NCBI GenBank assembly: GCA_944358455.1
Contig: CALVRE010000018.1
Location: 1-55,221 of the forward strand
Direction: 5' to 3'
Length of the DNA: 55,221 bases
Origin: an uncultured Bacilli bacterium
GTDB lineage: Bacteria > Bacillota_I > Bacilli_A > RF39 > UBA660
Shown: positions 2,442-40,728 of the stretch, in pieces
Numbering within the stretch: position 1 is the stretch's first letter
Layout: each line of letters opens with the position of its first letter
The notes under the pieces: model-generated
The model's database searches: none
Seen by the model: the letters and a program-made list of their open reading frames with translations, nothing else
What the model was told of the DNA's origin: nothing
Made by a program: the position numbers and the translations under genes

Positions 2442-4046
2442 ATGAAGAAAATATATTTTAATGGTACGATTTTAACGATGGAAGAGGAATTATATGCAGA
2501 AGCAGTTTGTATCCAAAATGGTATTATTAAAGCGGTTGGTACTTTGGATGAAGTGATGAAAGAAAAAGATGAGGAAACCGAAATGGTGAATTTAGAGGGG
2601 AAAACGCTGTTGCCAGGTTTTATTGATGCCCATAGTCATATTACGGCAATTGCCCAGACATTGGGTTCTATTTCATTAGAAAATACACATAGTTTTCGAG
2701 AATTAAAAGAAAGAATGCGTATTTATTTGAATCAACATGATATCAAAGAAGGAGAATGGATTAGTGGATTTGGCTATGATCAAAATGAATTAGAAGAACA
2801 TGCTCATCCGACAAAAGAATTATTGGATGAATGTTTTCCTCATAATCCTGTTATCATTAGTCATAAATCGGGACATATGGGAGTGATCAATAGCCTTGGT
2901 TTAAAAATTTTAGGAATTGATGTGGATACATGTGATCCTGAGGGTGGTGTGATTGGTAGAAATCCCGATACTCATGAACCCAATGGTTATCTGGAAGAAG
3001 TTGCTTTTACGATGGCTTCTAGTAAAATACCGTCTCCTTCGTTAGAAGAGCAATTGCATCGTTTAAAAGAGGCTGAAAAAATATATTTACAAAATGGTAT
3101 TACGACTGCACAAGATGGTGTTACGAAAGAATTTGGATTAACGCAGTTGATTAAGATGTCCGAACAAGATCAATTAACATTAGATGTCGTGGGGTATCTT
3201 GATATTCATTTTCCGCAGCTATGTGAAATAGGAAAGGAATACATCAAGCATTATCACAATCATTTTAAAATTGGAGGCTACAAAACATTCTTGGATGGTT
3301 CTCCACAGGGAAGAACGGCTTGGATGAGTATTCCTTATCAGAATGATTCTGATTATTGTGGTTATCCTGTTTTAACTGATGAGGAATTGATGCGAGAAAT
3401 GAAACAAGCAATCGAAGAAGAGATGCAGATTCTGATTCATTGTAATGGTGATGCTGCTTGTGAGCAGATGATTCGTTGTTATCAGCAAGTAACGGAAGAA
3501 TTAGAAGTAAATCCAAGAAGCTATCGACCGGTGATGATTCATGCACAACTAGTCAGAAAAGATCAGTTGAAACGAATGAAAGAGTTAGGTATTATTCCAT
3601 CTTTCTTCGTTAGTCATACTTACTATTGGGGAGATGTTCATATCCAGAATTTTGGATTGGATCTTGCTTCATCCATCAGTCCAGCTCGAAGTGCATGTGA
3701 ATTAAATTTGCCATTTACTTTTCATCAAGATACACCTGTCATTTTACCTGATATGTTGGAAACGATTTGGTGTGCGGTTAATCGAACAACAAAAGAAGGA
3801 GTTGTGTTAGGAGAAGAGGAACGAATTACACCATTAGAAGCATTGAAAGCGGTTACCATTCATGCCGCATATCAATATTTTGAAGAAATGAAGAAAGGGG
3901 CGATCAAAGTTGGAAAAGATGCCGATTTCGTTATTTTAGATCAAAACCCGCTCGTGATTGATCCATCGGCAATTCGTACCATTCAAGTATTAGAAACCAT
4001 TAAAAAAGGAGTTACGGTATATGCAAGAGAAGTATCTATTCATTGA
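2442..4046 (+). CDS. amidohydrolase family protein (YtcJ-like)
   Basis: A 534-residue amidohydrolase-3 family enzyme. The N-terminal beta-sandwich contains GKTLLPGFIDAHSHI (metal-binding HxH) near residues 54-66. IHCNGDAA near residue 330 and FHQDTPV near 430 supply further His/Asp ligands, and the C-terminus returns to the sandwich with GKDADFVILDQNPL. Relatives hydrolyse amide or similar bonds of uncertain substrates and are often annotated as YtcJ-like. It overlaps the next gene by 26 bases, indicating translational coupling. Confidence 0.9.
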   Translation: MKKIYFNGTILTMEEELYAEAVCIQNGIIKAVGTLDEVMKEKDEETEMVNLEGKTLLPGFIDAHSHITAIAQTLGSISLENTHSFRELKERMRIYLNQHDIKEGEWISGFGYDQNELEEHAHPTKELLDECFPHNPVIISHKSGHMGVINSLGLKILGIDVDTCDPEGGVIGRNPDTHEPNGYLEEVAFTMASSKIPSPSLEEQLHRLKEAEKIYLQNGITTAQDGVTKEFGLTQLIKMSEQDQLTLDVVGYLDIHFPQLCEIGKEYIKHYHNHFKIGGYKTFLDGSPQGRTAWMSIPYQNDSDYCGYPVLTDEELMREMKQAIEEEMQILIHCNGDAACEQMIRCYQQVTEELEVNPRSYRPVMIHAQLVRKDQLKRMKELGIIPSFFVSHTYYWGDVHIQNFGLDLASSISPARSACELNLPFTFHQDTPVILPDMLETIWCAVNRTTKEGVVLGEEERITPLEALKAVTIHAAYQYFEEMKKGAIKVGKDADFVILDQNPLVIDPSAIRTIQVLETIKKGVTVYAREVSIH

Positions 4047-4383
4047 ATATCCCAAATGTAGTACATGCCAAAAAGCGAAAAAATGGTTAGATGATCATCA
4101 TGTTTCCTATAAGGATCGCCATATCGTCGAAGATAATCCTACCAAAGAAGAATTGAGAAGTTGGATTCGTCAAAGTGGTTATCCGATCAAGAAGTTTTTC
4201 AATACAAGTGGAAATATGTATAAAGAACAACATTTGAGTACTAAATTACCTTCGTTAACAGAAGAAGAACAGTTAGATCTTTTAGCTAGTCATGGAATGT
4301 TGGTAAAACGTCCACTACTTATTGGCAAAGATAAAATTTTAGTAGGTTTTAAGGAAGAAGAATGGAAAACAACTATGATGTGA
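4021..4383 (+). CDS. arsenate reductase (ArsC)/Spx-family protein
   Basis: A 120-residue thioredoxin-fold protein with the ArsC-family opening (FIEYPKCSTCQKAKKWL; CSTC at residues 13-16) and the C-terminal signature LLASHGMLVKRPLLIG. The family includes arsenate reductases, YusI/YffB-like proteins and the Spx regulators; the RPLLIG tail favours the YusI-like group over Spx. The start lies inside the amidohydrolase gene, but AAAGGAG upstream and the intact family N-terminus support it. It ends in TGA, showing that TGA is a stop codon here. Confidence 0.85.
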   Translation: MQEKYLFIEYPKCSTCQKAKKWLDDHHVSYKDRHIVEDNPTKEELRSWIRQSGYPIKKFFNTSGNMYKEQHLSTKLPSLTEEEQLDLLASHGMLVKRPLLIGKDKILVGFKEEEWKTTMM

Positions 4384-4393
4384 ACAAAAAAAC

Positions 4394-4422
4394 TTGTCAA
4401 AAAGGAAAGAATTTGCCAAAAT
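4394..4422 (+). promoter_or_regulatory. promoter of leader module A
   Basis: TTGTCA (4394-4399), 17-bp spacer, CAAAAT (4417-4422). The spacer ends in AATTTGC, matching the promoter of module C (33319-33347) almost exactly and that of module B (10799-10827) partly. The position before a GTGTGC hairpin is the same in all three. Confidence 0.5.
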
Positions 4423-4447
4423 AAAAATATGAAGAAATAGTAATATA

Positions 4448-4530
4448 GTGTGCAAGAAACATGAAAAAGAACGTTTTTTTCTTGGCTGCGATAAGCACAC
4501 TGGAGGGAGGATTATATACCCCTCTTTTTT
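4448..4530 (+). ncRNA. leader/small RNA module A: two hairpins ending in a terminator
   Basis: GTGTGC (4448-4453) pairs with GCACAC (4495-4500) around a longer insert than in the sister copies; inside it CAAGAAA can pair with TTTCTTG. Immediately after comes GAGGG (4503-4507) pairing with CCCTC (4520-4524) and six T residues (4525-4530). The same two-hairpin order occurs at 10854-10903 and 33372-33419, also before genes for exported pilin-like proteins. It could be a transcription attenuator or a short stand-alone RNA. I do not recognise it as a known riboswitch class. Confidence 0.55.
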
Positions 4531-4549
4531 CTTGACTCTATAATATATA

Positions 4550-4578
4550 TTGGATTAAAGAGAAAAGTATGATACAAT
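4550..4578 (+). promoter_or_regulatory. internal promoter for the BspA-type prepilin gene
   Basis: TTGGAT (4550-4555), 17-bp spacer, TACAAT (4573-4578), located after the terminator-like hairpin of module A and before the RBS AGGAGAG. If active, it would let the gene be expressed independently of read-through from module A; modules B and C leave no room for such a promoter. Confidence 0.45.
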
Positions 4579-4614
4579 CAAAATAGAGAAGAATAGAAGT
4601 AGGAGAGATGAAAA

Positions 4615-6129
4615 ATGAAAAAAAGAGGATTTACATTAATTGAATTATTGGCCGTAATCATCATATTAGCGGTAATTGCGTTAATTGCAACCCCACTAGT
4701 TATGAATATTATCGAAGAAAGTAGAAAATCAAGTTTTCGTGTTAGTGTTGAAAATATGATCCGAGCAATGGAAACAGATCAAGCAACACAAGGATTTATT
4801 CCCTTATCTTATCAATTTCCACTAGATGCTGATACAACTTTAAAATTAGATGGAAAGATAGATGATTGGCAAGGAAAGTCATCGATTGATGAGGATGGAA
4901 ACACAGCAGTTTCCATCTATAACGGAACTTATTGTGCGTATAAAAAGAAAGATGATAATTCTGTTTCTGTTGAAAAAGTAAGTAGCGAGAAAGAATGCCT
5001 TGATTTTACTAATCCTATTTTACCAGTTATGATGGAAGGCGAACTTGCATCTATAGATATGGAGACAGTAGAATTTGATCCTGGGTCTTCTAAATTTTTA
5101 AATGGACCAATTACCAGAGAAGAAATTGAAAGTATAAGGATCAATAATACGAAAGAAGTACCAGGAACAGTATTAGGAAGCTTTGATGTTTCAGAAAGTC
5201 AAAATGAAAGTGTAATTGCTTACTACAGTGATAATGATAGTGATGGATTATATGAAGTAGTAATTGGAGGAGAAGGAGGAGTTTTAGCCTCAACCAATGC
5301 TCGATTTTTATTTGGAGCGTTATATAATGTGACAACGATTGATTTAAGTAATTTCGATACATCCCAAGTAACAGATATGTATGCTATGCTTGCTGTATGT
5401 CCAAGTTTAACCGAGTTGAACATCAGTAATTTTGACACATCCCAAGTAGCAAATATGAGTTATATGTTTACTAATTGTAAAGGTTTAACCAAGCTAAATT
5501 TAAGTGATTTTAATACATCAAAAGTAACGAATATGAGTTATATGTTTGCTGATTGCAGTAGTTTAACAGAATTAGATTTGAGTAATTTCAATACATCAAA
5601 AGTAACGAATATGGGTAATATGTTTTATATGTGTCAAGGTTTAACAGAATTAGATTTGAGTAATTTCAATACATCAAAGGTAACAGATATGGCTTCTATG
5701 TTTGAGGGCTGTAGTAGTTTAACAGAGTTAAATGTAAGTAACTTTAACACATCAAAGGTAACAGATATGAATCGTATGTTTTCCTCTTGTGGAAGTTTAA
5801 CAAAATTAGATTTAAGTAGTTTTGACACATTAAAGGTAACAAATATGGGTTCTATGTTCTCTTGGTGTATCAGTTTAACAGAATTAAATGTAAGTAACTT
5901 TAACACGTCTCAAGTAACAGATATGAGAACTATGTTTTATTCTTGTGGTAGTTTAACAAGTTTAGATCTTCGTAATATGACCTTCGATAGTGTAACTAGT
6001 TATTCAAGTATGTTTTCTAATATAACCTCTGGTATTACCGTTACGGTAAAAGATAGTAGTGCCAAAACCTTCATCGAATCAAGATTAAGTGAAGCAAGTG
6101 TAACAGGAACGGTTACGATTGCCTCTTAA
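4615..6129 (+). CDS. prepilin-signal protein with BspA-type (DUF285) leucine-rich repeats
   Basis: A 504-residue surface protein candidate. Residues 1-30 are a class III (type IV prepilin) signal: MKKRG then FTLIELLAVIIIL, with the cleavage site after Gly5 and Glu at mature position 5. After a spacer of about 200 residues come about nine BspA/DUF285 repeats of 25 residues with consensus LTELDLSNFNTSKVTNMSYM, each usually ending in C plus two residues. Such repeats mediate host or matrix contact in other bacteria. The N-terminal 30 residues are nearly identical to those of the proteins at 10923 and 40363. RBS AGGAGAG. Regulated by the upstream module and probably an internal promoter. No pilus assembly genes are nearby. 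Confidence 0.85.
   Translation: MKKRGFTLIELLAVIIILAVIALIATPLVMNIIEESRKSSFRVSVENMIRAMETDQATQGFIPLSYQFPLDADTTLKLDGKIDDWQGKSSIDEDGNTAVSIYNGTYCAYKKKDDNSVSVEKVSSEKECLDFTNPILPVMMEGELASIDMETVEFDPGSSKFLNGPITREEIESIRINNTKEVPGTVLGSFDVSESQNESVIAYYSDNDSDGLYEVVIGGEGGVLASTNARFLFGALYNVTTIDLSNFDTSQVTDMYAMLAVCPSLTELNISNFDTSQVANMSYMFTNCKGLTKLNLSDFNTSKVTNMSYMFADCSSLTELDLSNFNTSKVTNMGNMFYMCQGLTELDLSNFNTSKVTDMASMFEGCSSLTELNVSNFNTSKVTDMNRMFSSCGSLTKLDLSSFDTLKVTNMGSMFSWCISLTELNVSNFNTSQVTDMRTMFYSCGSLTSLDLRNMTFDSVTSYSSMFSNITSGITVTVKDSSAKTFIESRLSEASVTGTVTIAS
5341..5965 (+). repeat. 75-bp tandem repeats encoding BspA-type LRRs
   Basis: About eight diverged in-frame units of 75 bp encode the 25-residue leucine-rich repeats. 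Several units share long near-identical blocks around codons for NFNTSKVT, so slippage or recombination between units is plausible. Confidence 0.8.
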
Positions 6130-6142
6130 TGATAAGTAATAG

Positions 6143-6171
6143 AAAGCTGCCAATATTTTTGGTAGCTTTTT
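6143..6171 (+). terminator. intrinsic terminator after the BspA-type gene
   Basis: AAAGCTGCCAA pairs with TTGGTAGCTTT (one G-T pair), followed by a T-run. It lies 14 bases after the stop codon. Confidence 0.75.
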
Positions 6172-6283
6172 GTAATATTTAGTTTTGTTTTCATAAATTA
6201 AAGTATGGATGAGAGAAAGATGAAATTTTTTTAATCATTCTATTTGTTAATGTTATATTGCTTTTCTTTTGATTAAAATATGT

Positions 6284-6289
6284 TAAAAT
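6284..6289 (+). promoter_or_regulatory. -10 box of mutY
   Basis: TAAAAT at 6284-6289. The predicted start of transcription falls at about 6296, exactly where the Shine-Dalgarno-like GAGTGAT (6296-6302) begins. That rules out the upstream ATG 6288 as the main start. No convincing -35 is visible. Confidence 0.45.
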
Positions 6290-6305
6290 GGATATGAGTG
6301 ATGTT

Positions 6306-7370
6306 ATGGAAGATTTAGAAATGATGGTAGAACCATTGTTGAAATGGTTTCAAAAAAATAAGCGTATCTTACCTTGGAGAGATGATCCTACTCCTTATCA
6401 TGTATGGATCAGTGAAATTATGCTTCAACAAACGAGAGTAGAAGCGGTAAAAGATTACTATGCTCGCTTTATGAAAGCCTTACCGGATATTCGTGATCTT
6501 GCTCAGGTATCTGATGATGATCTGATGAAATTATGGCAAGGACTTGGATATTATAATCGGGCTCGTAATTTAAAGAAAGCTGCTCAGCGTATTGTAGAGG
6601 AGTATGATGGTAAGCTTCCGAATCGTTATGAGGCATTGTTGACTCTTCCTGGAATTGGTAGTTATACAGCGGGAGCCATTGCTTCTATTGCTTATCAAAT
6701 TAAAGTGCCGGCTGTCGATGGAAATGTTCTTCGTGTCATGATGCGTGTTTTAGGAAGTGAGAAAAACATTAGTAGACCATCTACGAAAGTATGGTTGGAA
6801 GAACGTCTATCTGCTATATTACCAGATCGGGTTGGTGATTTTAATCAGGCATTGATGGAATTGGGAGCTCTTGTTTGTGTTCCCAATGGAGAACCAAAAT
6901 GTCAGGAATGTCCTCTTCGCTTTACTTGCCAAGCTTATCAAACAGGAATGACGACTGTATTACCGATAAAAGATGAGAAAAAAACGCGAAAAATTGAGGA
7001 TAAAACCGTTCTTTTGTTTTATTTTAACCATAATATTGCCTTATGGAGACGAAAGAATTCAGGTCTTTTAGCAGGACTTTTTGAATTTCCTAATGTAAGT
7101 GGCCATTTAACGACAAAAGAAGTGATTCAATATTTAAAACAAGAAGGTATCGAAGCAATTCGCATAGAGCCTCTACCTTCTGCCAAACATATTTTCTCTC
7201 ATGTCGAATGGAATATGATTGGTTATAAGATCGTACTAGACGATTTTGTGAAAGAGAGGCCATATATTTGGAGCAGTTTAGAAGAATTGCATCAGAAATA
7301 TGCCATTCCAACAGCTTTTGGCACGTATTTAGAACTTGTAATAGAGGAATTAAGCCATCGTACAATGTAG
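6306..7370 (+). CDS. mutY: A/G-specific adenine glycosylase MutY
   Basis: A 354-residue DNA repair glycosylase that removes adenine opposite 8-oxoguanine. It has the HhH-GPD core (WISEIMLQQTRVE; LPGIGSYTAGAIAS; VDGNVLRV with the catalytic Asp) and the 4Fe-4S cluster loop with cysteines spaced C-x6-C-x2-C-x5-C. A C-terminal NUDIX-like oxoG-recognition domain is present (FPNV, then HIFSHVEW). I chose ATG 6306 over 6288 or 6294 because GAGTGAT is correctly spaced and the -10 box overlaps 6288. Monocistronic, with a terminator on each side. Confidence 0.93.
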   Translation: MEDLEMMVEPLLKWFQKNKRILPWRDDPTPYHVWISEIMLQQTRVEAVKDYYARFMKALPDIRDLAQVSDDDLMKLWQGLGYYNRARNLKKAAQRIVEEYDGKLPNRYEALLTLPGIGSYTAGAIASIAYQIKVPAVDGNVLRVMMRVLGSEKNISRPSTKVWLEERLSAILPDRVGDFNQALMELGALVCVPNGEPKCQECPLRFTCQAYQTGMTTVLPIKDEKKTRKIEDKTVLLFYFNHNIALWRRKNSGLLAGLFEFPNVSGHLTTKEVIQYLKQEGIEAIRIEPLPSAKHIFSHVEWNMIGYKIVLDDFVKERPYIWSSLEELHQKYAIPTAFGTYLELVIEELSHRTM

Positions 7371-7398
7371 AAAAAAGAGTATTCTTTTTTCTTTTTTT
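7370..7398 (+). terminator. intrinsic terminator after mutY
   Basis: GAAAAAAGA (7370-7378) pairs with TCTTTTTTC (7383-7391) around a GTAT loop, followed by seven T residues. It begins at the last base of the mutY stop codon. Confidence 0.75.
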
Positions 7399-7463
7399 AT
7401 GTTTAAGGTGACAAAATATTCAACACAATAAGCATAGAATAGTGGAAGAAAGGATCGATTGAT

Positions 7464-9785
7464 ATGTTTGGAAATTTTACAGAAGAAGCTAGAAAAATCT
7501 TAGTACAAGCGAAAATAGAAATGAAAGAATTAAAACATCCTTATGTCGGTAGTGAACATTTATTGCTTGCCATCTTGCATGATCAAAATCGTATTACGGA
7601 ACGATTAAAAGAATATCACTTGGATTATCAAGTGTTTCATGATGAAATTGTCAATGTAGTAGGAATGGGATCAAATCCTAGTCCATGGTTCTTGTATACT
7701 CCTTTACTGAAACGAATCTTAGAAAATGCTATTTTGGATAGTAAAGAAAACAATCGTGGAGAGGTAACGGTGGATCACTTGTTCTCTAGTTTGTTAGAAG
7801 AGGGAGAAGGAGTTGCAATTCGCATTATGTTAGGTATGAATATCGATATCGATGAACTCTATAATGAATTTTCTTATAAATTGAATCAAGGAAGTAAGAG
7901 TAAGAAGAATAAGAAACTTCTCTTGGAAGAATTGGGAGTCGATCTTACCAAGAAAGCTTTGAATGGAGAATTAGATCCTGTGATTGGAAGGGAAAAAGAA
8001 TTGCAACGTATATTAGAAATTTTATCGCGTAGAACCAAAAATAATCCCCTTTTAATCGGAGAAGCAGGTGTTGGGAAAACGGCTATCGTAGAGGAACTTA
8101 GTCGCATGATTGCAAGCGGTGATGTTCCCATGTGTTTACGAAATAAACGCATTATTTCGCTCGATATGGCCACAACAGTGGCAGGAACGAAATATCGTGG
8201 TGAATTTGAGGAACGCATGCGTAAGATCTTAAAAGAAATTGAAGAAAATGATGATATTATTCTTTTCATCGATGAAATTCATACGTTAGTAGGAGCAGGT
8301 GGAGCTGAAGGAGCGATCGATGCTTCTAATATTTTTAAACCAGCTTTGGCTCGTGGAAAGTTAAGACTGATCGGAGCGACGACTACTGATGAATATAAAA
8401 AGTTCATTGAAAGTGATGGAGCACTAGAAAGAAGATTTCAAAAATTGATGGTAGAAGCCCCGGATCAACAATCCGTGAAAAATATTTTGATGAAATTAAA
8501 AGGAATTTATGAGAAATTTCATTTTGTAACCATCGATGAGGCTATGATCGATCTATTGATTCAACTATCAGAACGTTATATCTATGATCGCAATCAACCG
8601 GATAAAGCGATTGATCTATTAGATGAAGTATGCGCAAAAGTAAGTTTAGAAGAAAGTAAAGAAATGAAAGAGTATAATAAGCTTCATAGACAATTACAAG
8701 AAAAAATTACACTTAAAAATAAAGCGATTATCGATCATAAATTCGAAGAAGCATCTATTTATAAAGAGGAAGAAAATGCTATTATGAATGAAATGAATGA
8801 GTTAGAACTACAGATTCATCAAAATAGCAAAAAAGAAGTAACAAAGGAAGATATTGCTGAAGTAATTCATATGAAAACGGGAATTCCTGTCTATGAATTA
8901 TTACAAGACGATAAAGCAATTTTTGATTGTATGGAAAGAGATTTAAAAGATGCCATCGTTGGTCAAGATCATGCTTTGAAAGAAGTACTGCAAATTGCTA
9001 GAAGAATCAAATTAGGGTTTCGCGATGAAGATAAATGTTATTCTTGCCTATTTTGTGGACCATCGGGTGTTGGAAAGACGGAATTAGCTAAGACGTTTGG
9101 AAATGCACTAGTAGGAGAAACGAACGTGATTCGACTCGATATGAGTGAATATAAAGAACCACATACTGTTTCAAAAATTGTTGGGGCACCTCCTGGATAC
9201 GTCGGTTATTCCGATCATAAAAATATGCTGGAAGAAGTACGAAATAAACCGTATTCCGTCATTATTTTAGATGAAATCGAAAAAGCCCATACCGATGTTC
9301 TCAATTTGTTTTTACAGATACTAGAGGAAGGCAAAATTAAAGATGCAATGGGAAAAGTGGTACGTTTCGATCATACTGTGATTTTGATGACTTCCAATGT
9401 TGGTTATTTTGATTATCATGTTGGATTTACGGAACAAAAAGAGGAAGATATTCAAGTCAAATTAAAAGAATACTTCAGTATTCCATTCATTAATCGTATA
9501 GATCATATGATTTTATTTCATCCTTTATCAAGAGAACATATTCGTTTGTTAGTAAATAGACAAATGGAACAAGTAAAAGAGAAATATCGTCTAAAAAAAT
9601 TAAAGTTAGAAATCGATGAGGAAGTGATGGAACAACTTATCGATCTATCTAATTATCAAGAGTTTGGTGCTCGTCGCATCTCTAAATTAATCAAGGAAAA
9701 AATTGAAAATCCAGCAATTGAAAGCTTATTAGCAAAAAAGAAAAAACTTGTTATTCATGATGTTAAAGAAGAACCAGTCGCTTAA
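7464..9785 (+). CDS. clpC: ClpC-type AAA+ ATPase
   Basis: A 773-residue Clp/Hsp100 unfoldase that feeds substrates to ClpP. The order is: N-terminal double Clp-N repeat ([30 protein letters not shown]), AAA-1 with Walker A GEAGVGKT at 199-206 and Walker [10 protein letters not shown], a middle coiled domain with a UVR-like [14 protein letters not shown] stretch, and AAA-2 with Walker A GPSGVGKT at 532-539 and DEIEKAH. It is somewhat shorter than B. subtilis ClpC (about 810). The ctsR-mcsA-mcsB genes usually found upstream are absent here, so heat-shock control must differ or act in trans. RBS GAAAGGA. Confidence 0.92.
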
Positions 9786-9792
9786 AAATAAG

Positions 9793-9825
9793 AAACTCTG
9801 TTACATGAAGAGTAATAGAGTTTTT
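9793..9825 (+). terminator. intrinsic terminator after clpC
   Basis: AAACTCTGTTAC pairs with GTAATAGAGTTT (one G-T pair), followed by a T-run. Confidence 0.75.
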
Positions 9826-9913
9826 ATTTTGATCTTTTAACATTTTTAGAAAAAAAGGAAAAATTGTTTCAATTAGAAAATTTTATGATATAATAACTAA
9901 TAAGGTGATAAAA

Positions 9914-10453
9914 ATGATAGATCAAATCAAAGTAAGTCTAGATGAGAATCCAAACTTGAACGATGAACTTCGTAATAACATCTTTGAATTAGTCCTCATT
10001 TTTCAAAAACAATTTCCGGAAGTTCGTTTAAAAAACTTAAATGAACGATTAAAAACTTTGAAAATCGAACGTGCAAACAAATATGTACAACCATATGTAA
10101 TCAATTATTTGCCACTTGAAAATAAATTATTGTTTAATGTTGATGAATTATCAAAAGAACATGATGGAAAACATTTACTCATGTTTGCTCTACTTCAAAT
10201 TATTACGGCAAATGGTAATAATGTAGGCTTTGATGTCGATCATAAATTTGAAGCTTTAAATATTGGATATACTGAAATTTTGGCTTCTTATTTGGTAGGT
10301 AATGAAAGTGATCATTTCTATTTTCCAATTGAAAGTGCTTATGCTAACATGATTGGAATTGCCATTGGAGTAGATAAATTAAAGGAAGCATATTTTTATA
10401 ATAAACCGGCATCATTTATACAAGCGTTAGAAGAAATTGGTGTCGAATTATAA
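9914..10453 (+). CDS. hypothetical protein
   Basis: A 179-residue soluble protein that I do not recognise, with no signal peptide, membrane segment or cysteine cluster. ATG 9914 is preferred over GTG 9905 because the GTG lies within the Shine-Dalgarno AAGGTGAT (9902-9909), itself 8 bases after a TATAAT at 9889-9894. The sequence is rich in leucine and charged residues and probably helical. It is followed 16 bases later by another small unknown gene; the two probably form an operon just upstream of the large prepilin-type gene. Confidence 0.75.
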   Translation: MIDQIKVSLDENPNLNDELRNNIFELVLIFQKQFPEVRLKNLNERLKTLKIERANKYVQPYVINYLPLENKLLFNVDELSKEHDGKHLLMFALLQIITANGNNVGFDVDHKFEALNIGYTEILASYLVGNESDHFYFPIESAYANMIGIAIGVDKLKEAYFYNKPASFIQALEEIGVEL

Positions 10454-10469
10454 GAAAAGGGGAGTTTAT

Positions 10470-10778
10470 ATGGGTTTTAAAACAGTAAATGATGGATGGA
10501 ACAGTTTAAAAAAGCAAGCAGATGCATTAGGAACGGAATATGCAACGAGAGAGCTTGACTTAGGAGGAAATTTAGATTCACTCTTGAGTATATTAAAAGA
10601 TGCTGTATCACCAAGTCAAATAGAGGCGATGATAGCGCAGTTGCCAACTGTATCAGGAATTTGGCCATATGATAACATCAACTATCAAAAAGTTGAAAAT
10701 GTTTGTAATGAATATGGACATTATGCTATCGAAAGACAACAAGACTTATCTGATGTTAATGTTCGCAAATTATCATAA
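10470..10778 (+). CDS. small hypothetical protein
   Basis: A 102-residue soluble protein with no recognisable family. The start at 10470 has AAAAGGGGAG upstream; an ORF extension to 10437 would overlap the preceding gene and lacks an RBS. The N-terminus MGFKTVNDGWNSLKKQADALG looks helical and faintly like WXG100 substrates, but the WxG turn is missing. Probably co-transcribed with the gene at 9914. Confidence 0.7.
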   Translation: MGFKTVNDGWNSLKKQADALGTEYATRELDLGGNLDSLLSILKDAVSPSQIEAMIAQLPTVSGIWPYDNINYQKVENVCNEYGHYAIERQQDLSDVNVRKLS

Positions 10779-10798
10779 GATGATTTGCTTTTTTGATC

Positions 10799-10827
10799 TT
10801 GCAAATAGAAATTAAATCTGTTAAAAT
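10799..10827 (+). promoter_or_regulatory. promoter of leader module B
   Basis: TTGCAA (10799-10804), 17-bp spacer, TAAAAT (10822-10827). The predicted transcript starts near 10834, giving a leader of about 89 bases that contains the two hairpins. Spacing and -35 match the promoters of modules A and C. Confidence 0.6.
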
Positions 10828-10853
10828 AAAAACAGAAATAAATAATAAAATGA

Positions 10854-10903
10854 GTGTGCGATATGCACGCGGGGGGGGGGTAAATATTTACCCTCTCTTT
10901 TTT
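10854..10903 (+). ncRNA. leader module B: GTGTGC hairpin, G10 tract and terminator-like hairpin
   Basis: GTGTGC (10854-10859) pairs with GCACGC (10865-10870) around GATAT with one wobble pair. A G10 homopolymer follows at once (10871-10880). Its last Gs form a perfect 16-bp palindrome GGGTAAATATTTACCC (10878-10893), then CTCTC and six Ts. The T-run ends 20 bases before the start codon, so termination here would block the gene. I do not recognise the structure as a known riboswitch; see modules A and C. Confidence 0.65.
10871..10880 (+). repeat. G10 homopolymer
   Basis: Ten consecutive G residues within a very AT-rich intergenic region and inside the G-rich arm of a terminator-like hairpin. 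The sister modules have interrupted G-runs at this place (GAGGGAGG and GAGGAGGGG). Confidence 0.9.
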
Positions 10904-10922
10904 GTTGGAAAGAGGAATTGAA

Positions 10923-12935
10923 ATGAAACAAAAAGGATTTACGTTAATTGAATTGCTCGCAGTGATTGTGGTACTGGCAGTCATTGCTTTGATCGCAACC
11001 CCACTTGTGATGAATGCGATCGAAGATGCAAGAAAAGGAGCTTTAGAGAGAAGCTATGATTATATCGAAGATAGTGCCTCTAACTATGTGTATGCGAATT
11101 ATAATGAATTGAATATTCCAGATTATGTAGATTATTATTTGCCAGTACAAGAATTAACAGACAATGGTTATTTGAAAAATGCAACCGAAGAAATGAATCA
11201 AGAATATGTGATTGTGAAAAAAAGTGATGATGATATGACATTCTATTATACAGGAAGAGATCAGAATCCCTATGAAACGAATGGAACGTTAAAAGAGAAT
11301 ATCGAAAGTGATACCTCTCATATTGTTAAAAATGTGGTCATCAATGGAGTAACCGTCAATAAAGTCATTGGAACCAAAGCAGAAAAAAACACAACGATGA
11401 AAAACTATGTTTGGTATAGTGGAAACTTATGGCAAGTGTTGGAGACAACGGATGAATATGTCAAAATGGTTTTGGCTCATAGTATTACGAGTATTCCTTA
11501 TGGAGAAACAAGTGACTGGAACGCAAGTTGGGTAAGGAAATGGTTAAATGAAATGGATTCTAGTAGTACTTATGATGGAATCTTCTATCATGGTTTATCG
11601 AGAACGGATTTACTCTTAGATGGACAATTTTGTTTGGATGAACCAACGGTAACTACTCGTTTGAAGTTATCCGATGGTGGAGATTATATTGTAAGTCTAC
11701 CATCTACATCATCTAAAATTAGTAATTGTCAGAACATTTCAAAGGATAAAGTAGGACTTTTGACCTTTGAAGACTACGTATATGCGAACAATGGAACAAG
11801 TATGACATTCACAGGAGGAAGTTTCTTAGATGAAGATGAGTTTACGTGGACGATGACAAAATATACAGGTAATGGACAAAACAATTATATGTGGATCCAA
11901 TGGTACGAAAATATAGATGGAAAGAGTGGGAACATCGCAGTGGATACAGGAGGAACAGTGGATGGAACAACAAAATCTTCTCAATTCAGTAGGACCAACA
12001 ATTATGGTCATGGAGTAAGACCCGTGATATATATGAAGAGTCATGTTTTGGTATCATCAGGGACAGGGACGAAAAAAGATCCCTTTGTATTAGTAAGTGA
12101 AAAGAAAAAGGTAAGTAAATTAAATCAAGCAACGATAGGGGAATATATTTATTTAGATGAGAGCAACAGTCCGAACACCACTACTACGGAAACGGTTGTG
12201 AATGGGCTTACGTATTCTTATAACAAGAACCAAGTCAGATATCGAATCATTGATATTCTGGATGATGGAAGTATCAAAGTAGAACGAGCTGACATATTAA
12301 GAGACTTACCAAATACGATTGCGATTCAATCTGGCATATATGTACCATATTACTATGTGGGAGAAGCTTCTACTTCAACAGGATGTGCATACATCAATGG
12401 AACTTATTATTATGGAGGATGTATCAATCATAATTATTTCAAACCAACAGAAGGGAATGGAGAATATAGTTATACCAACAGTATGAATATAGCGTATTAT
12501 TTGAATAATGCAAGTAATAGTTTTTATAACTGGTTCAGTGATGATACGAAAAGTTGGATTGTGAATGCGACATGGGATTTACCAGTAACGGCTCATGGAA
12601 TGGATTACAGTATTCGAATGGACCGAAGTCAAGATATAACAGGGCAAACGAATTATTGGAACAACACGTATGATGGAAGAGTGACAGCTTATGTTGGATT
12701 ACCATCATATGGAGAGAGATATAGTGGAAATGATTTGAACGCTTCTTACTGGTATATGAATCGATGTGTAAACTCCTCTTCCTTTGTGGGACGCGTCCGC
12801 AGCGGCGGCTATGCGTCTGGTTACCATGCAGGCGATCATTGGAATGGGGTTCGCCCAGTATTGGTATTAAATTCTAATCTTTATATCATTTCTGGAAATG
12901 GAACGAGTAATCAACCATATCAAGTTAGTTTATAA
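10923..12935 (+). CDS. prepilin-signal protein with two C-terminal DUF6273-like repeats and a GC-rich variable-like end
   Basis: A 670-residue surface protein candidate. The prepilin signal is MKQKG then FTLIELLAVIVVL (cleavage after Gly5, Glu at +5). After a pilin-like segment, two related domains follow (about 150-395 and 396-670), each ending in GVRPV, a short spacer and a GTG.KKDPF or GTS.QPYQ motif, as in DUF6273/lectin-like modules of gut Firmicutes. Residues 623-645 are encoded by a 69-bp block of about 64% G+C unlike the rest of the gene. ATG 10923 is preferred over the TTG codons at 10902/10905, because AAAGAGG fits it and the prepilin signal begins there. Likely regulated by module B. 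Confidence 0.85.
   Translation: MKQKGFTLIELLAVIVVLAVIALIATPLVMNAIEDARKGALERSYDYIEDSASNYVYANYNELNIPDYVDYYLPVQELTDNGYLKNATEEMNQEYVIVKKSDDDMTFYYTGRDQNPYETNGTLKENIESDTSHIVKNVVINGVTVNKVIGTKAEKNTTMKNYVWYSGNLWQVLETTDEYVKMVLAHSITSIPYGETSDWNASWVRKWLNEMDSSSTYDGIFYHGLSRTDLLLDGQFCLDEPTVTTRLKLSDGGDYIVSLPSTSSKISNCQNISKDKVGLLTFEDYVYANNGTSMTFTGGSFLDEDEFTWTMTKYTGNGQNNYMWIQWYENIDGKSGNIAVDTGGTVDGTTKSSQFSRTNNYGHGVRPVIYMKSHVLVSSGTGTKKDPFVLVSEKKKVSKLNQATIGEYIYLDESNSPNTTTTETVVNGLTYSYNKNQVRYRIIDILDDGSIKVERADILRDLPNTIAIQSGIYVPYYYVGEASTSTGCAYINGTYYYGGCINHNYFKPTEGNGEYSYTNSMNIAYYLNNASNSFYNWFSDDTKSWIVNATWDLPVTAHGMDYSIRMDRSQDITGQTNYWNNTYDGRVTAYVGLPSYGERYSGNDLNASYWYMNRCVNSSSFVGRVRSGGYASGYHAGDHWNGVRPVLVLNSNLYIISGNGTSNQPYQVSL
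12789..12857 (+). other. GC-rich variable-region-like block
   Basis: 69 bases with 44 G/C in a roughly one-third G+C genome. It encodes residues 623-645, starts with the palindrome GGACGCGTCC, and has six consecutive codons ending in C (CGC GTC CGC AGC GGC GGC). Outside the block the gene prefers AGA, CGA and GGA. It sits 26 codons before the stop, directly over the GVRP signature that ends the lectin-like domain. Confidence 0.6.
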
Positions 12936-20555: not shown

Positions 20556-20620
20556 GTATAACAAAGATTTGATCTTCCATACTATTTATAGTAAAATAAG
20601 AAACGATGGGAAGTGTTGTT

Positions 20621-21988
20621 ATGAAACTCAAAGTGGATTCTCGTAAGGTTATTCCTGGTGATACTTTTTTAGCGTTACGAGGAGTTGATAGTGATGGACA
20701 TCAATATATTGAAAAAGCGATCGAAAATGGAGCTATAAAAATTATTGCCGAAGAGGGAAGTTATGCGGTGGAAACCGAAATTGTTCCAGATACAAGAGCT
20801 TATTTAGCTACTTATTTAAAGGATTATTACCACGACATGTTATCGAAGTTACAATTGATTGGAATTACGGGAACAAATGGTAAGACGACAAGTGCTTTCT
20901 TGCTTCATAAAGCATTCTATCAAGTGGGGATCAAAGCTGCTTATATTGGAACGGTTGGTTTCTATATGGATGAAAAGGTGCGTTCTTTAAATAATACTAC
21001 TCCTGATTTATATGAACTTTATGCATTATTTGAAGAAGCTTATAAGCAAGGATGTAAAATCATTGTTATGGAAGTCAGTAGTCAAGGTATCGCTTATGGA
21101 AGAATCGAAGGTTTAGAATTCGATCTTGCGATTTTTACGAATTTGACACAAGATCATTTGGATTTTCATAAGTCGATGGGGAACTATGCTTTGGCCAAAC
21201 AACAATTGTTTAAGCAATTAAAAAAAGATGGACTTGCTTTAATTAATGCGGATGATAGTTATAAAGAGTATTTCTTATTGGATCAAAATATTAATGTTAC
21301 ATATGGTTTTACGAATAGTGATTATCAAGTAATTGATTATCAAATGACAAATATCGACACTGTTTTTACATGTCGCTATCATGATGAATTGTATACGTTT
21401 GATATGTCACTTCTTGGAAAGTACAATGTTTATAATGCTTTGGTGACAATTGCTGCTTTACATGAATATGGTGTTTCGTTTGACAAAATTCGTTCTATTT
21501 TTCCACATCTTTCTGCTCCTGTCGGTCGTATGGATATGGTTCGATATCAGACGAATACGATTATTGTCGATTATGCTCATACGCCGGATGCAATCGAAAA
21601 AATTTTAAGGACGGTTGGGGAAGTAGAACCGGAGCACATTTATGTTGTTTTTGGTTGTACGGGAGATCGTGATCGTTTAAAAAGACCAATCATGATGGAA
21701 TTAGTAACCAATTTGGCTGATTATGCTATCATTACGAATGATGATCCTCATGATGAAGATCCAAAACAAATCGTAGCGGATATGATTGACGGTATCGAAA
21801 AAGAAAACTTTGAAGTAATCTTAGATCGTCCTAAAGCGATTGCCAAGGGAATTTCCTTGTTGAAGAGTCATGATGTATTGTTGATTTTAGGAAAAGGCCA
21901 TGAGGAATTTATGATTGTCAAAGACAAGAAGATTCCAATGAATGATAAGAAAATCGTCGAAGATTTATTAAAAGAATATCAAAGATAG
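20621..21988 (+). CDS. murE: MurE-family UDP-MurNAc-tripeptide synthetase, paralogue 1 (DDPH motif)
   Basis: A 455-residue Mur ligase that adds the third peptide residue to UDP-MurNAc-L-Ala-D-Glu. It has an N-terminal MurE domain (KLKVDSRKVIPGDTF), P-loop GITGTNGKTTSAF, the central VMEVSSQGI and the C-terminal VFGCTGDRDRLKRP. The residues that set third-residue specificity, DNPR in meso-DAP enzymes, read DDPH at 374-377, so it may not accept meso-DAP in the usual way. ATG 20621 is chosen over 20606 for GGGAAGTG spacing and alignment with paralogue 2. TAAAAT at 20592-20597 is a likely -10. Confidence 0.9.
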   Translation: MKLKVDSRKVIPGDTFLALRGVDSDGHQYIEKAIENGAIKIIAEEGSYAVETEIVPDTRAYLATYLKDYYHDMLSKLQLIGITGTNGKTTSAFLLHKAFYQVGIKAAYIGTVGFYMDEKVRSLNNTTPDLYELYALFEEAYKQGCKIIVMEVSSQGIAYGRIEGLEFDLAIFTNLTQDHLDFHKSMGNYALAKQQLFKQLKKDGLALINADDSYKEYFLLDQNINVTYGFTNSDYQVIDYQMTNIDTVFTCRYHDELYTFDMSLLGKYNVYNALVTIAALHEYGVSFDKIRSIFPHLSAPVGRMDMVRYQTNTIIVDYAHTPDAIEKILRTVGEVEPEHIYVVFGCTGDRDRLKRPIMMELVTNLADYAIITNDDPHDEDPKQIVADMIDGIEKENFEVILDRPKAIAKGISLLKSHDVLLILGKGHEEFMIVKDKKIPMNDKKIVEDLLKEYQR

Positions 21989-22041
21989 GTGAAATCACCA
22001 TTTTGTTATAGTGTCATAAACTGTAGCAAGAGGTGATTTTT
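21988..22041 (+). promoter_or_regulatory. murE-murE spacer with mutually exclusive hairpins
   Basis: GGTGA (21988-21992) can pair with TCACC (21995-21999). The segment AAATCACC (21992-21999) can instead pair perfectly with GGTGATTT (22032-22039), which contains the Shine-Dalgarno of the second murE and is followed by more T residues. The spacer could therefore attenuate transcription or hide the ribosome site. Confidence 0.4.
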
Positions 22042-23397
22042 TTGAATATTAAGTCCGACTCGAGGAAAATTAAAAAGGGAGACACCTTTGTAGCTTTGAA
22101 GACGTTACAACATGATGGACATGATTATGTTGATGATGCGATTCAAAGAGGCGCTACAAAAGTAGTTGTAGATCATGGGTTATACGATGTGGAAACGATT
22201 GTCGTCGAAGATACGAAAGAGTATTTGATTCAAATGTTAAAAGAGGAATATTATGATCAGATAAAAGATCTTAAATTGATTGGTATGACAGGTACAAATG
22301 GTAAAACGACAACTTGTTTTTGTATTCATGAAGCATTAAATAATCATGGTATGAAATGTGGATATATTGGTACGCTTGGATTTTATATAAAAGATAAGAT
22401 TTGTGATTTACCAAATACGACGCCAGAGATTACAGATATTTATGAGATGTTACTCACATGTAGAGATAAAAATTGTAAAGTAGTAGTGATGGAAGTAAGT
22501 AGTCATGCTCTATCCATGAAGAGAGTCTCTGGTTTAGAATTCAATTATGTAATTTTTAGCAATCTTACGGAAGATCATTTAGATTATCATGCTTCTATGG
22601 AAGAGTATGCTTTGGCCAAACAAAAATTATTTTATATGTTAAAAGAAAATGGAAAAGCGATCATTAATTATGATGATCCATATAAGAATTATTTTTTATT
22701 AGAACAAAATCATAATATTACTTATGGATTTCAAGGTGGTGATTACCAAGTTACCCATTTCGCATTGGGGGGGACAAGGACAGAATTTACGCTTAGTCAT
22801 GGAATGGATATTCCTTATACAACTTCTTTGCTTGGGAAACATAATATCTATAATTTAGTATGTGTGCTCATCGTTTTAGAAAAATTGGGAATCAACCAAG
22901 AAGATCGGGTGGAACTGTGTGAGAAGATGAAAGCACCAGCTGGAAGAATGGATACAATTCTTTATGATACTAATACGATTATTGTCGATTATGCACATAC
23001 ACCAGATGCTGTGGAAAAAATACTAGAAGCGATTCATGAGTTTTCAAAAGGTAATATCATTACCATCATTGGTTGTGGTGGTGATCGTGATCGTAAAAAG
23101 CGTCCGATCATGGCTCATATTGCAACAGCACTTTCTACATATGTTATTTTTACAAACGATAATCCACGTACAGAGGATCCGAAACAAATTTTTCAAGATA
23201 TGGTACAAAACCTTGACAATTCTAATTATGAAATCGTGGAAAATCGAGAAGAAGCCATTATAAAGGGTATACAAATGCTTAAGAAAAATGATATACTTAT
23301 AATATTGGGAAAAGGCCATGAAAATTATCAAGTAATTGGAACAGAAAAAATTGATTTTGATGATAAAGATATAGTAGTAAAAACAATTAGGAGTTGA
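22042..23397 (+). CDS. murE: MurE, meso-diaminopimelate type, paralogue 2 (DNPR motif)
   Basis: A 451-residue Mur ligase. P-loop GMTGTNGKTTTCF, VMEVSSHALSM, GCGGDRDRKKRP and DNPR at 373-376, the classic signature of meso-DAP-adding MurE. I choose TTG 22042 as start: AGAGGTGAT is 5-6 bases upstream, and the resulting N-terminus MNIKSDSRKIKKGDTF aligns residue for residue with paralogue 1. The GTG at 22033 lies inside the Shine-Dalgarno. The TTG start implies lower translation than its neighbour. It ends in TGA overlapping the ATG of mraY. Confidence 0.9.
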   Translation: MNIKSDSRKIKKGDTFVALKTLQHDGHDYVDDAIQRGATKVVVDHGLYDVETIVVEDTKEYLIQMLKEEYYDQIKDLKLIGMTGTNGKTTTCFCIHEALNNHGMKCGYIGTLGFYIKDKICDLPNTTPEITDIYEMLLTCRDKNCKVVVMEVSSHALSMKRVSGLEFNYVIFSNLTEDHLDYHASMEEYALAKQKLFYMLKENGKAIINYDDPYKNYFLLEQNHNITYGFQGGDYQVTHFALGGTRTEFTLSHGMDIPYTTSLLGKHNIYNLVCVLIVLEKLGINQEDRVELCEKMKAPAGRMDTILYDTNTIIVDYAHTPDAVEKILEAIHEFSKGNIITIIGCGGDRDRKKRPIMAHIATALSTYVIFTNDNPRTEDPKQIFQDMVQNLDNSNYEIVENREEAIIKGIQMLKKNDILIILGKGHENYQVIGTEKIDFDDKDIVVKTIRS

Positions 23398-24589: not shown

Positions 24590-26035
24590 TTATTTTTTAA
24601 ATTTATATTTTGTTGGTTCAGAGGGCTCAATTAAATTAGCCTCTAGTAATAGTGCAATAATTTCTGATGCTCTAGATTTTTTAACATGAAATATTTCCGC
24701 AACATCTTCCCATTTAAAGTTGTATTGGTAGTTAAATTTATCAAATAATTTTTGAATTTTATCATGAGTACTTTTTGTTATATTTAACGGAAGATTTTTG
24801 TGTAGTTTAATTAAAAAATAATCTTCATCACTAACAATATTTCCACTCATAACCGGACTTTTTTTGCCCATAGCCGGACTTTTTTTGATATAATTTTTAT
24901 TTGGAAATATCACTTTAAATGATGAAACATCAGAATAAAAGGTCGGTTTGATATCATAATCATTATATGATTCTACTATCCTTGTCAAGCCACTAGCTCT
25001 ACGTTCCATAAAATGTAGTCGATTAAAGATGTCTGAAATAACTCTATTTCGTCTCATTGATGAAACTTTGGTGATATCTAGATTTTGAATAAAACTGCCA
25101 TCTATCATTCCGCCAGGTGAAGTTATTTCCAATCTGTTATCATATATATCTATATGAATTTCGGAACCAACCATTTGATAATCTCGATGAATAATAGCGT
25201 TAACTATAGCTTCACGAATTGCCCTAACTGGATAATCTTCTATTTCTATTCTTTTCATTCCTTTAATTTCCCAACTAGTTCTAGAATGATTCTTTATGAA
25301 TATTTCGGCATTTTCTAAAAGCGAAATAATACTCCCTGTATATTCTTTATCATCGATAGCATCTCCTTCAACAGCTCCTTTAACTAAACCTTTCCATCGA
25401 GTACAAAAAATTCTTGATTGAATTAATAATCCTTGATCGGATAAAAGTAGTCCTGCATTTGTTACTTTCTTACTTTTTGTCATTAACTCTAATGATATAT
25501 AATCTTTATCTTTATTTAATTCTTTAGTCGTTTCCTTTTTTAATGTTGCATTTAATAAAGTGAAACTAACATCAGATATATCATACTGACTAGGTAATTC
25601 ATCAAAAGTTGTGTTTTGTCCTTTCAAAATTAATCCGTCTAATATATGTTTAGGAGCAATTATGGATTGGTTTCCGGCTCTAATAAAAGCTTCTTTTCTT
25701 CCATCTCCATGATAATAATATGGAGTTCTTGGTCCATCTCCTACTTTCACTTCTAAAAAATCCTTATTGTTTTCCTTAAAGGTTTTTAATTCGTATCTTG
25801 GGAGTGGAGTAATTTTATCATTTATTAATTCAGATACTTTTTCTGAATCCTTAATGATATCTTCTAGCCCAACAGGTTCTCTATCCACATCTTTTATTCC
25901 AAATAATAAAATTCCACCATTTGAATTAGCAAATGCTGATACGGATTTAAGCCAACTTTTAGGTTTATTATATTCCACTTTCTCTTTAAATTCTATATTT
26001 GAGTTTTCTACTTTTTCATAATCTTTTAATTGCAT
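24590..26035 (-). CDS. AlbA_2 (Schlafen-like) domain ATP-binding transcriptional regulator
   Basis: A 481-residue COG2865-type protein. The N-terminal AlbA_2 domain has ESNIEFKE-like ENSNIEFKE, then FANSNGGILLFGIKD. A GHKL-like ATP-binding part has AIREAIVNAIIHRDY (about 275-290), and a C-terminal winged helix is near 440-475. A linker near 390-405 contains KKSPAMGKKSPVMSG, encoded by two copies of a DNA motif that also occurs twice upstream of the gene. RBS GGAGGTG precedes the start. ATA and other AT-rich codons are more frequent than in neighbours. It is the only reverse gene in this region, which suggests acquisition. Role unknown. Confidence 0.85.
   Translation of the reverse strand: MQLKDYEKVENSNIEFKEKVEYNKPKSWLKSVSAFANSNGGILLFGIKDVDREPVGLEDIIKDSEKVSELINDKITPLPRYELKTFKENNKDFLEVKVGDGPRTPYYYHGDGRKEAFIRAGNQSIIAPKHILDGLILKGQNTTFDELPSQYDISDVSFTLLNATLKKETTKELNKDKDYISLELMTKSKKVTNAGLLLSDQGLLIQSRIFCTRWKGLVKGAVEGDAIDDKEYTGSIISLLENAEIFIKNHSRTSWEIKGMKRIEIEDYPVRAIREAIVNAIIHRDYQMVGSEIHIDIYDNRLEITSPGGMIDGSFIQNLDITKVSSMRRNRVISDIFNRLHFMERRASGLTRIVESYNDYDIKPTFYSDVSSFKVIFPNKNYIKKSPAMGKKSPVMSGNIVSDEDYFLIKLHKNLPLNITKSTHDKIQKLFDKFNYQYNFKWEDVAEIFHVKKSRASEIIALLLEANLIEPSEPTKYKFKK
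24846..24888 (-). repeat. two in-gene copies of the AACCGGACTTTTT motif
   Basis: CATAACCGGACTTTTTTT and CATAGCCGGACTTTTTTT are separated by GCC. They encode the KKSPVM and KKSPAM linker repeats of the regulator. The first, with its left flank, matches the intergenic copy at 26157-26178 at all but one position. Confidence 0.7.
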
Positions 26036-26160
26036 ATAACACCTCCATCACTATTATATATTATACAGTATTTTTTTACTCCTTTTGTCATTATATGTTG
26101 TAATTAAATAAATTTCCGTTTAAAAGTGGATTTTTTATACAAGTAAAACATAAAACTCCA

Positions 26161-26200
26161 CTTATAACCGGACTTTTTAACTTATAACCGGACTTTTTAA
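26161..26200. repeat. perfect 20-bp tandem duplication (CCGGAC motif)
   Basis: CTTATAACCGGACTTTTTAA occurs twice without a gap, about 125-165 bases upstream of the reverse regulator gene. The same core is found inside that gene at 24846-24888. Confidence 0.85.
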
Positions 26201-33318: not shown

Positions 33319-33347
33319 TTGCAAAGATGATACAAATTTGCTAAAAG
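33319..33347 (+). promoter_or_regulatory. promoter of leader module C
   Basis: TTGCAA (33319-33324), 17-bp spacer ending AAATTTGC, TAAAAG (33342-33347). GCAAA and TTTGC form a short inverted repeat between the two boxes. Same spacing and similar sequence as modules A and B. Confidence 0.55.
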
Positions 33348-33371: not shown

Positions 33372-33419
33372 TGTGTGCATAATGCATACAGAGGAGGGGA
33401 GTACTTACCCCTTTTTTTT
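33372..33419 (+). ncRNA. leader module C: GTGTGC hairpin and terminator-like hairpin
   Basis: TGTGTGC (33372-33378) pairs with GCATACA (33384-33390, one wobble) around ATAAT. GAGGAGGGG follows, its GGGG (33396-33399) pairing with CCCC (33408-33411), then eight T residues. The T-run ends 17 bases before the start codon at 33437. Closest to module B in length and spacing. Confidence 0.6.
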
Positions 33420-33436: not shown

Positions 33437-33766
33437 ATGAAAAAGTGGAAATTCATAGGATTGATCGTTGTTTTGATGTTGATTACAAGTACGACGACTT
33501 ATGCCGTGACAACCTTATATGATGCCGTAGAAGTAGAATACGATAATCGTAATAGTGGAACAGAAGAAATAGAAGTGCAGGGAGCGATTGATAAACTTTA
33601 TGATTTAGTGGGAAAGTGCCCAGAAGGATACATCTGTAAACCAGTTATTCGGACATGTTTTATAGTGGAATCTCTGATATTACCAATAGCAGTGCTAGCT
33701 AAAATTTTTATTGAAGTAAGACTCAGCGATGTAAATAGAATAGGAACGATTACTATTAAAAATTAA
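33437..33766 (+). CDS. small exported protein, possibly truncated or frameshifted
   Basis: A 109-residue protein. The signal peptide has a KKWK start, a hydrophobic core and a cleavage site near TYA (about residue 22). The mature part YDAVEVEYDNRNSGTEEIEV then QGAIDKLYDLV with CPEGYIC resembles the N-terminus of larger exported proteins in this bacterial group. After CKPVIR the sequence turns hydrophobic and unlike an exported domain. In another frame the same bases read SYSDMFYSGISDITNSSAS, which looks more natural, so a frameshift is possible. RBS GAAAGGAG directly follows module C. Confidence 0.55.
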   Translation: MKKWKFIGLIVVLMLITSTTTYAVTTLYDAVEVEYDNRNSGTEEIEVQGAIDKLYDLVGKCPEGYICKPVIRTCFIVESLILPIAVLAKIFIEVRLSDVNRIGTITIKN

Positions 33767-36734: not shown

Positions 36735-36954
36735 ATTAAATGCGAAGAACAAGAGGAGTACCTTGTAATTATGGATAGAGAGTTCGTGGTTGGTGGAAGC
36801 GAATCGTAAGAAGAGGGAAGGTAGCTTGGGAGTTGCTTACTGAATAGTTAGGTAAAGACGTATCCTTGCGTTAAAAGGTCGAGGTAATTTCTTAGTAAAT
36901 TACGAATTAAGGTGGTACCACGTCATCACGTCCTTATAGGATGTGATTTTTTTT
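36735..36954 (+). promoter_or_regulatory. T-box riboswitch, valine specific (GUA specifier)
   Basis: A tRNA-sensing leader. Stem I base CAAG (36750-36753) pairs with CTTG (36825-36828). The loop-E AGTA lies at 36757-36760 and the apical GGTTGGTGGAAGC is present. The specifier-loop codon GTA (36821-36823) sits beside the closing AAGG/CCTT pairs and reads valine. The conserved T-box AAGGTGGTACCACG is at 36909-36922, with TGGT ready to pair with the tRNA end. The competing terminator is ATCACGTCC / GGATGTGAT plus T8 (36925-36954). It controls the HD gene and valS. Confidence 0.93.
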
Positions 36955-40362: not shown

Positions 40363-40728
40363 ATGAAGGCAAATAAAGGGTTCACCTTAATCGAATTATT
40401 AGCTGTTATTGTTATTTTAGCTGTAATTGCATTGATTGCTACTCCATTAGTAATGAATACAATTAACGATGCTAGAAAAGGTGCTGCTAGAGATGCTGCT
40501 TATAACTACATCCATGCTGTAGAAACTGAAATCGGACTTAACATGGTTTCAGATACTGCATATACTGTGCCATCTACAATCACAGATGCATCATTCGCTA
40601 CAGTTAAGGGTACTGCTCCAACATCTGTAAGTTTATCTTTAGATGCTAATGGTGTTGTTCAATCAGGATACTTAGTTATCAATGGTTATACAGTAACAAT
40701 CACCAATGGAAATGCTACAACTAAGTAA
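40363..40728 (+). CDS. short type IV pilin-like protein (candidate major pilin)
   Basis: A 121-residue protein. The prepilin signal is MKANKG then FTLIELLAVIVIL (cleavage after Gly6, Glu at +5), with the N-terminal alpha helix running to about residue 55. A compact Ala/Thr/Val-rich globular part follows (TVPSTITDASFATVK...GYLVINGYTVTITNG). Small size, strong RBS (GAGGAGGG), near-consensus promoter and a codon pattern richer in GCT, ATC and AAC than neighbours suggest high expression, as for a major pilin. Prepilin peptidase, PilB/PilC-type and other assembly genes are not in the window. Confidence 0.85.
   Translation: MKANKGFTLIELLAVIVILAVIALIATPLVMNTINDARKGAARDAAYNYIHAVETEIGLNMVSDTAYTVPSTITDASFATVKGTAPTSVSLSLDANGVVQSGYLVINGYTVTITNGNATTK

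Follow-up and report, generated by a model that had tools for sequence, protein, structure and literature searches.

The window analysed here, a 55,221-nucleotide stretch of DNA from an uncultured Bacilli bacterium, raises the question of why one and the same promoter, followed by two hairpins, stands in front of three genes for surface proteins. A preliminary description had reported this shared order and had proposed either a common switch or a family of small RNAs. The order was confirmed in all three intergenic regions, including the -35 sequences, 17-nt spacers, -10 sequences and hairpins: a promoter is followed by an A-rich stretch with a conserved box at its end, a first hairpin (P1), a G-rich/C-rich second hairpin (P2), a T-run and CTTG or GTTG. 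When aligned, the three copies also have in common CTTG(C/T)(A/C)AAA, the 17-nt spacer and a -10 that follows TTTGC or CTGT. The individual features are as follows.

4394..4422, + strand: copy 1 promoter, TTGTCA-N17-CAAAAT, conserved across 49-65 aligned copies
4434..4447, + strand: copy 1 A-rich box (AAATAGTAATATA), 5' of P1; invariant alignment columns, with AATCATAGAATAG as its equivalent in other genera
4448..4500, + strand: copy 1 hairpin P1, long-loop subtype, GTGTGC (4448-4453) with GCACAC (4495-4500); from covariation, not the single-sequence minimum-energy fold
4502..4530, + strand: copy 1 terminator-like hairpin P2, its G-arm (GGAGGGAGG) interrupted, followed by a T-run; from sequence and model match
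4550..4578, + strand: copy 1 second promoter, TTGGAT-N17-TACAAT, 3' of the terminator; seen again in prepilin-class copies of the congener G001
4615..6129, + strand: copy 1 gene, prepilin N-terminus and PARCEL/DUF285 repeats
10799..10827, + strand: copy 2 promoter, TTGCAA-N17-TAAAAT, with TG before the -10; an independent promoter prediction agrees
10854..10870, + strand: copy 2 hairpin P1, GTGTGC-GATAT-GCACGC; from folding and model match
10871..10903, + strand: copy 2 P2, with G10 tract (10871-10880), loop, 3' arm CCCTCTC and T-run; from folding, with a predicted terminator at 10871
10923..12935, + strand: copy 2 gene, 670-aa prepilin-like protein
33319..33347, + strand: copy 3 promoter, TTGCAA-N17-TAAAAG
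33373..33389, + strand: copy 3 hairpin P1, GTGTGC-ATAAT-GCATAC; from folding and model match
33390..33418, + strand: copy 3 P2, its G-arm (GAGGAGGGG) interrupted, followed by a T-run; from folding and model match
33437..33766, + strand: copy 3 ORF, 109 aa, N-terminus of the exported AVTTLYDA family

In copies 2 and 3 the predicted fold consists of two hairpins side by side, with z-scores of -4.7 and -3.8, respectively. The minimum-energy fold of copy 1, in which the P1 loop is 41 nt long, differs from P1/P2, so P1 of this copy rests on homology. The end of the T-run lies 18-19 nt from the ATG in copies 2 and 3, in agreement with the earlier report of a distance within 20 bases for two of the copies; between the copy 1 terminator and its gene lies the second promoter. 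A model search of the window matches these three copies only, and the short pilin gene at 40363 therefore lacks the leader, as had been stated. The three window genes encode a PARCEL/DUF285 prepilin, a 670-aa prepilin-like protein and a member of the exported family that is apparently truncated at 109 aa relative to paralogues of 458-490 aa. Tandem 78-nt repeats at 5263-6030 encode the PARCEL repeats of the copy 1 product. Elsewhere in the window, two adjacent Mur ligase genes (20606-23397) are about 70% alike in places and are apparently a tandem duplication, and paired 20-22-nt repeats, ATAACCGGACTTTTT, occur at 24842-26198 at a Schlafen/AlbA_2-RecG-like gene on the - strand, with one pair inside the 3' part of the gene and one just upstream of it.

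The preliminary description had not recognised the segment as any known riboswitch or attenuator, and the Rfam searches agree: the leader copies gave no match at the gathering threshold in a search of the entire window, the one search that covers copy 3, and none when 4000-12000, the part with copies 1 and 2, was searched permissively. A T-box leader (RF00230) at 36736-36938 of the window precedes an HD-domain gene and a gene for a valyl-type tRNA synthetase.

Homologues beyond the three loci, for which a covariance-model search had been suggested, are present both in the source genome and in related genomes. A pattern search found four further copies in the source assembly (1.17 Mb, 43 contigs), and a first covariance model was built from six copies of that genome. 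The source genome (G000) contains 16 confident matches (E<1e-3), two of which are parts of a single copy interrupted by an insertion sequence, and the first model gave 27 confident matches in G001, the one congener compared, and nothing convincing among 38 other relatives. When 145 genomes of the family were searched for a T-run preceded by a poly-G hairpin, the matches outside the source genus were in G153, which belongs to another genus, and at one site in G151. The G153 leader has the same architecture in other letters: TTGnnn, TATAAT, ATCATAGAATA, GTTTGT...GCAAAC, G9-11, TAATACCCTCTTTTTTT, a Shine-Dalgarno sequence and a prepilin gene. A model made from G000 alone detects the copies in the retrieved G153 stretches, with E values down to 4.5e-8. 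Given that a six-copy model finds 27 copies in the congener as well as matches in another genus, the recurrence is beyond chance.

A second covariance model, made from 49 copies, was run on 243 genomes from 148 genera of the family. G153 carries about 20 copies and G256, a genome of the same genus, 12, and the second model adds traces in two more genera (three copies in G200 and one in G078). Among 247 genomes drawn from the class, the source genome is the sole match; the 243- and 247-genome searches both used stricter filters, with which weak matches are lost. With matches in 4 of the 148 genera and none among the genomes sampled elsewhere in the class, the distribution of the leader is therefore patchy within one family. 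Matches to an 18-nt pattern in viral contigs and in genomes outside the genus carried no element, and a presence in phages or distant genomes was rejected as a candidate.

The pairing of both hairpins has been maintained by compensatory change. In an alignment of 65 copies that spans four genera, standard pairs fill 98.4% of the pair cells and 11 of the 14 pairs show two-sided changes, values that lean towards the structure because the alignment was fitted to the model; sliding the partners lowers the standard pairs to 39-70%. Covariation is also found on 49 copies, and it is present in P1 and in P2, which is the support from both stems that the preliminary description had asked for. In P1 the changes can be read directly in the sequences, from GTGTGC/GCACAC through GTTTGT/GCAAAC to ATTTTGC/GCAAAAT. 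Few parts of the leader are as well conserved between genera as the unpaired box 5' of P1. Chance repetition is ruled out by the cross-genus matches together with the slid controls, and the leader is a real and new structured family, confined to some members of a single family of uncultured Bacilli. A kissing interaction between loop and box, judged by eye, was inconsistent between genera and was rejected.

The placement of the leader is as consistent in the related genomes as had been anticipated: most copies abut the Shine-Dalgarno sequence of an exported-protein gene. The downstream products are mostly prepilin-like proteins or members of a large exported paralogue family with the N-terminus AVTTLYEAKEVGYDN, and others are a TagD-like cytidylyltransferase, LicD and a family-2 glycosyltransferase. 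Decayed or housekeeping genes (ABC-F and queA, named by eye) follow some of the weak copies. Two weak leader-like copies at orthologous sites (L043 and L068) precede a small gene that resembles YabP/YqfC by eye. A second promoter lies 3' of the terminator in about 8-10 prepilin copies, copy 1 included, and the leader is thus not the sole source of transcription for those prepilin genes.

The preliminary description overlooked this second promoter of the PARCEL/prepilin class, an insertion sequence that targets the element, and a G-homopolymer. The homopolymer, usually 8-11 nt long, forms the 5' arm of P2, and it points to phase variation rather than to a ligand switch. Runs of at least eight Gs lie inside the P2 5' arm in seven of seven cases in G000 and in 18 of 19 cases in G001, the nineteenth being in a poor contig end. 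A long homopolymer with a non-random location, as is characteristic of a contingency locus, is therefore present. Tract lengths differ among copies, mostly within 8-11 with a mode of 10 that could partly reflect assembly, in which each genome gives one length per locus, and degenerate copies exist as well. The G-arm also differs between species at orthologous loci. Interrupted G-arms, which should be stable, occur in several copies, two of the window's three among them, and count against phase variation. A 5' arm perfectly complementary to the 3' arm would mix A and G, and P2 with poly-G was less stable than P2 with such an arm in all seven tests; hence, stability does not explain the homopolymer.

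The relatives place similar tracts in two other contexts. G151 carries 13 intragenic tracts of G8-11 in surface-protein genes that have a common 5' start (L216-L230, for example L223:256). The frame is open only at n=9 or 12, multiples of three, so that two of the 13 are open and the other 11 are out of frame, meaning that most of those genes are OFF in the assembly. Tracts of G9-10 also occupy promoter spacers in G153 (L231, L236, L245) and in G151 (L227, L229), in the arrangement TTGACA-N18-20-TATAAT/TATACT. Judged by their sequences, the intragenic and spacer tracts are of the classical slipped-strand contingency design, with the spacer tracts as putative promoter-spacer phase switches and the leader as a putative third placement of the same poly-G device.

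Taken as a whole, these observations lead us to propose, with a probability of roughly 0.6, that the leader is a phase-variable transcription attenuator common to surface-protein genes. RNA polymerase would start at the leader promoter and transcribe the A-rich box, P1 and the terminator hairpin P2. Most transcripts would end at the T-run just 5' of the gene, and those that read through would express it. The P2 5' arm, with its approximately 8-11 Gs, would gain or lose Gs by slipped-strand mispairing at replication. Each G past about six would add to P2 one G-U pair that reaches into the U-tract, and with long tracts P2 would extend toward the ribosome site and Shine-Dalgarno sequence, so that tract length would set the read-through of each cell lineage. 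When the hairpin is folded in silico with n=4 to 13, the U-tract is free at n of about six or less and is then progressively G-U paired, about half of it at n=10. Since tract length fixes the end of P2 relative to the U-tract, we infer that it tunes read-through. Against the proposal, the modelled thermodynamic effect of a single G is gradual and could either raise or lower termination. The presumed instability of the run of about ten Gs probably makes each gene randomly switchable. If the proposal is true, homopolymer phase variation can work by tuning an intrinsic terminator, for which no precedent was found in the literature searched. It would also explain surface diversification in a small-genome Bacilli lineage, and one covariance model would suffice to find dozens of switchable loci.

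The insertion sequence interrupts the leader precisely within P1, at one fixed site and in one orientation. Six copies in G000/G001 (L027, L041, L059, L061, L063 and L066) are joined 3' to one of its ends, in every case at 17 or 19 nt upstream of the G-tract, and five others (L037, L045, L067, L070 and L142) are joined 5' to the opposite end, with a single orientation throughout. Because contigs break there, the insertion sequence is known from its ends, not from a complete copy. It looks IS3-like, as its OrfA and OrfB ends resemble IS3 by eye; a 69-aa OrfA fragment has no Pfam or NCBIfam match. Reading outward, the first end carries a promoter, the A-rich box and GTGTGC/GTATGC. As this end supplies a promoter and the 5' half of the leader, the hybrid regains both a promoter and P1. 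In an independent search with the first end, six of seven terminus-bearing matches lie in leaders and one, a remnant of 43 nt, lies elsewhere; the other end is known solely through leader matches. An insertion sequence that rebuilds the leader of its target is a separate curiosity. More tentatively, at slightly below even odds, we suggest that the whole constitutes a new leader family in which a contingency repeat serves as the terminator stem at dozens of surface loci per genome, together with a coevolved insertion sequence that lands in P1, supplies the promoter and the P1 5' arm, and so rebuilds the leader.

Other readings of the same evidence must be weighed against a phase-variable attenuator. 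An RNA-binding protein or signal could act in trans on the A-rich box and P1, such that the surface genes respond together and the G-tract is merely a hairpin arm. The strong conservation of the unpaired box across genera, the maintenance of P1 by compensatory changes and its restoration by the insertion sequence would all fit such a factor, as would an upstream purine tract in G200 that pairs with the U-tract in the predicted fold in the manner of an antiterminator. However, no conserved antiterminator pairing exists outside G200, a more stable complement than poly-G was available, and relatives place G10 tracts in contexts without an RNA switch, so we regard a shared trans-acting factor as rather unlikely. 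A functional small RNA, released from many loci by termination and acting in trans, would suit copy 1 and the other prepilin loci at which a separate promoter follows the terminator and leaves a self-contained upstream transcript of 110-130 nt. Most copies, though, abut a Shine-Dalgarno sequence without a second promoter, and the unpaired parts are A-rich with no obvious seed; we consider this reading very improbable. Of the two roles first proposed for the segment, a common leader of surface-protein genes was thus borne out, whereas a free-standing small RNA as the main role was not, because the T-run directly abuts the Shine-Dalgarno sequence in most copies.

It is improbable, too, that the leader is mainly a recombination handle, at which homologous exchange swaps promoters or downstream surface genes and the G-tract is prone to breakage. 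At the copy 1 locus the orthologous elements are 69% identical and the flanks 93-94%, and at a second orthologous locus the element is 83% identical and the flanks 90% and 98%. An element less conserved than its flanks at these two loci suggests local conversion between copies there; one such element is nearer to copies in its own genome than to its orthologue, and the downstream paralogues have conserved 5' ends in common. Nevertheless, other orthologous elements are about as conserved as their flanks, the elements precede unrelated genes, and recombination leaves both the covariation and the placement of the T-run unexplained. The least credence, very little indeed, goes to phase-variable attenuation through a leader peptide, as at Streptococcus gallolyticus pil1: the tract would shift the reading frame of a small ORF that is translated across the terminator. 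A repeat and a terminator do stand before pilin genes, as in that system (PMC3894217), and short ORFs can be drawn through some copies, but inspection of the copies shows that neither start codons nor stop positions are conserved, and the common G001 loops have no stop in any frame. The frame mechanism is unsupported because the distances from tract to gene start are spread over all three frames (11/10/8 and 6/5/5).

The phase-variable attenuator that we favor can be compared with several known systems. Like T-box and other Rfam leaders, it is a structured leader ending in a terminator, but it has no Rfam match and no aptamer-like conserved core. At Neisseria porA and fetA, homopolymer length in the promoter spacer tunes transcription; the leader tract instead lies 3' of the promoter, in P2, and the spacer type is found in G151 and G153 as well. 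REP or palindromic units are dispersed intergenic palindromes that are precise targets of insertion sequences (PMC1525189), whereas the palindromes described here are oriented leaders that bear a promoter, and the insertion sequence carries a replacement 5' half. The pilus clusters of Bifidobacterium breve, a gut commensal, contain poly-G contingency loci in which slippage switches pilus expression (PMC9187656); that tract is intragenic, while the leader tract is in an untranslated terminator hairpin. The S. gallolyticus pil1 and pil3 loci undergo phase-variable attenuation through GCAGA repeats in a leader-peptide ORF (PMC3894217). The likeness consists of a simple leader repeat and a premature terminator before pilus genes, with random surface expression, and for the leader, too, a premature terminator is predicted between promoter and gene. 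The S. gallolyticus repeat, however, lies in the leader-peptide ORF 5' of the terminator and acts through translation, whereas in the leader no conserved ORF was found, a mononucleotide tract is itself the terminator arm, and the arrangement recurs at dozens of loci.
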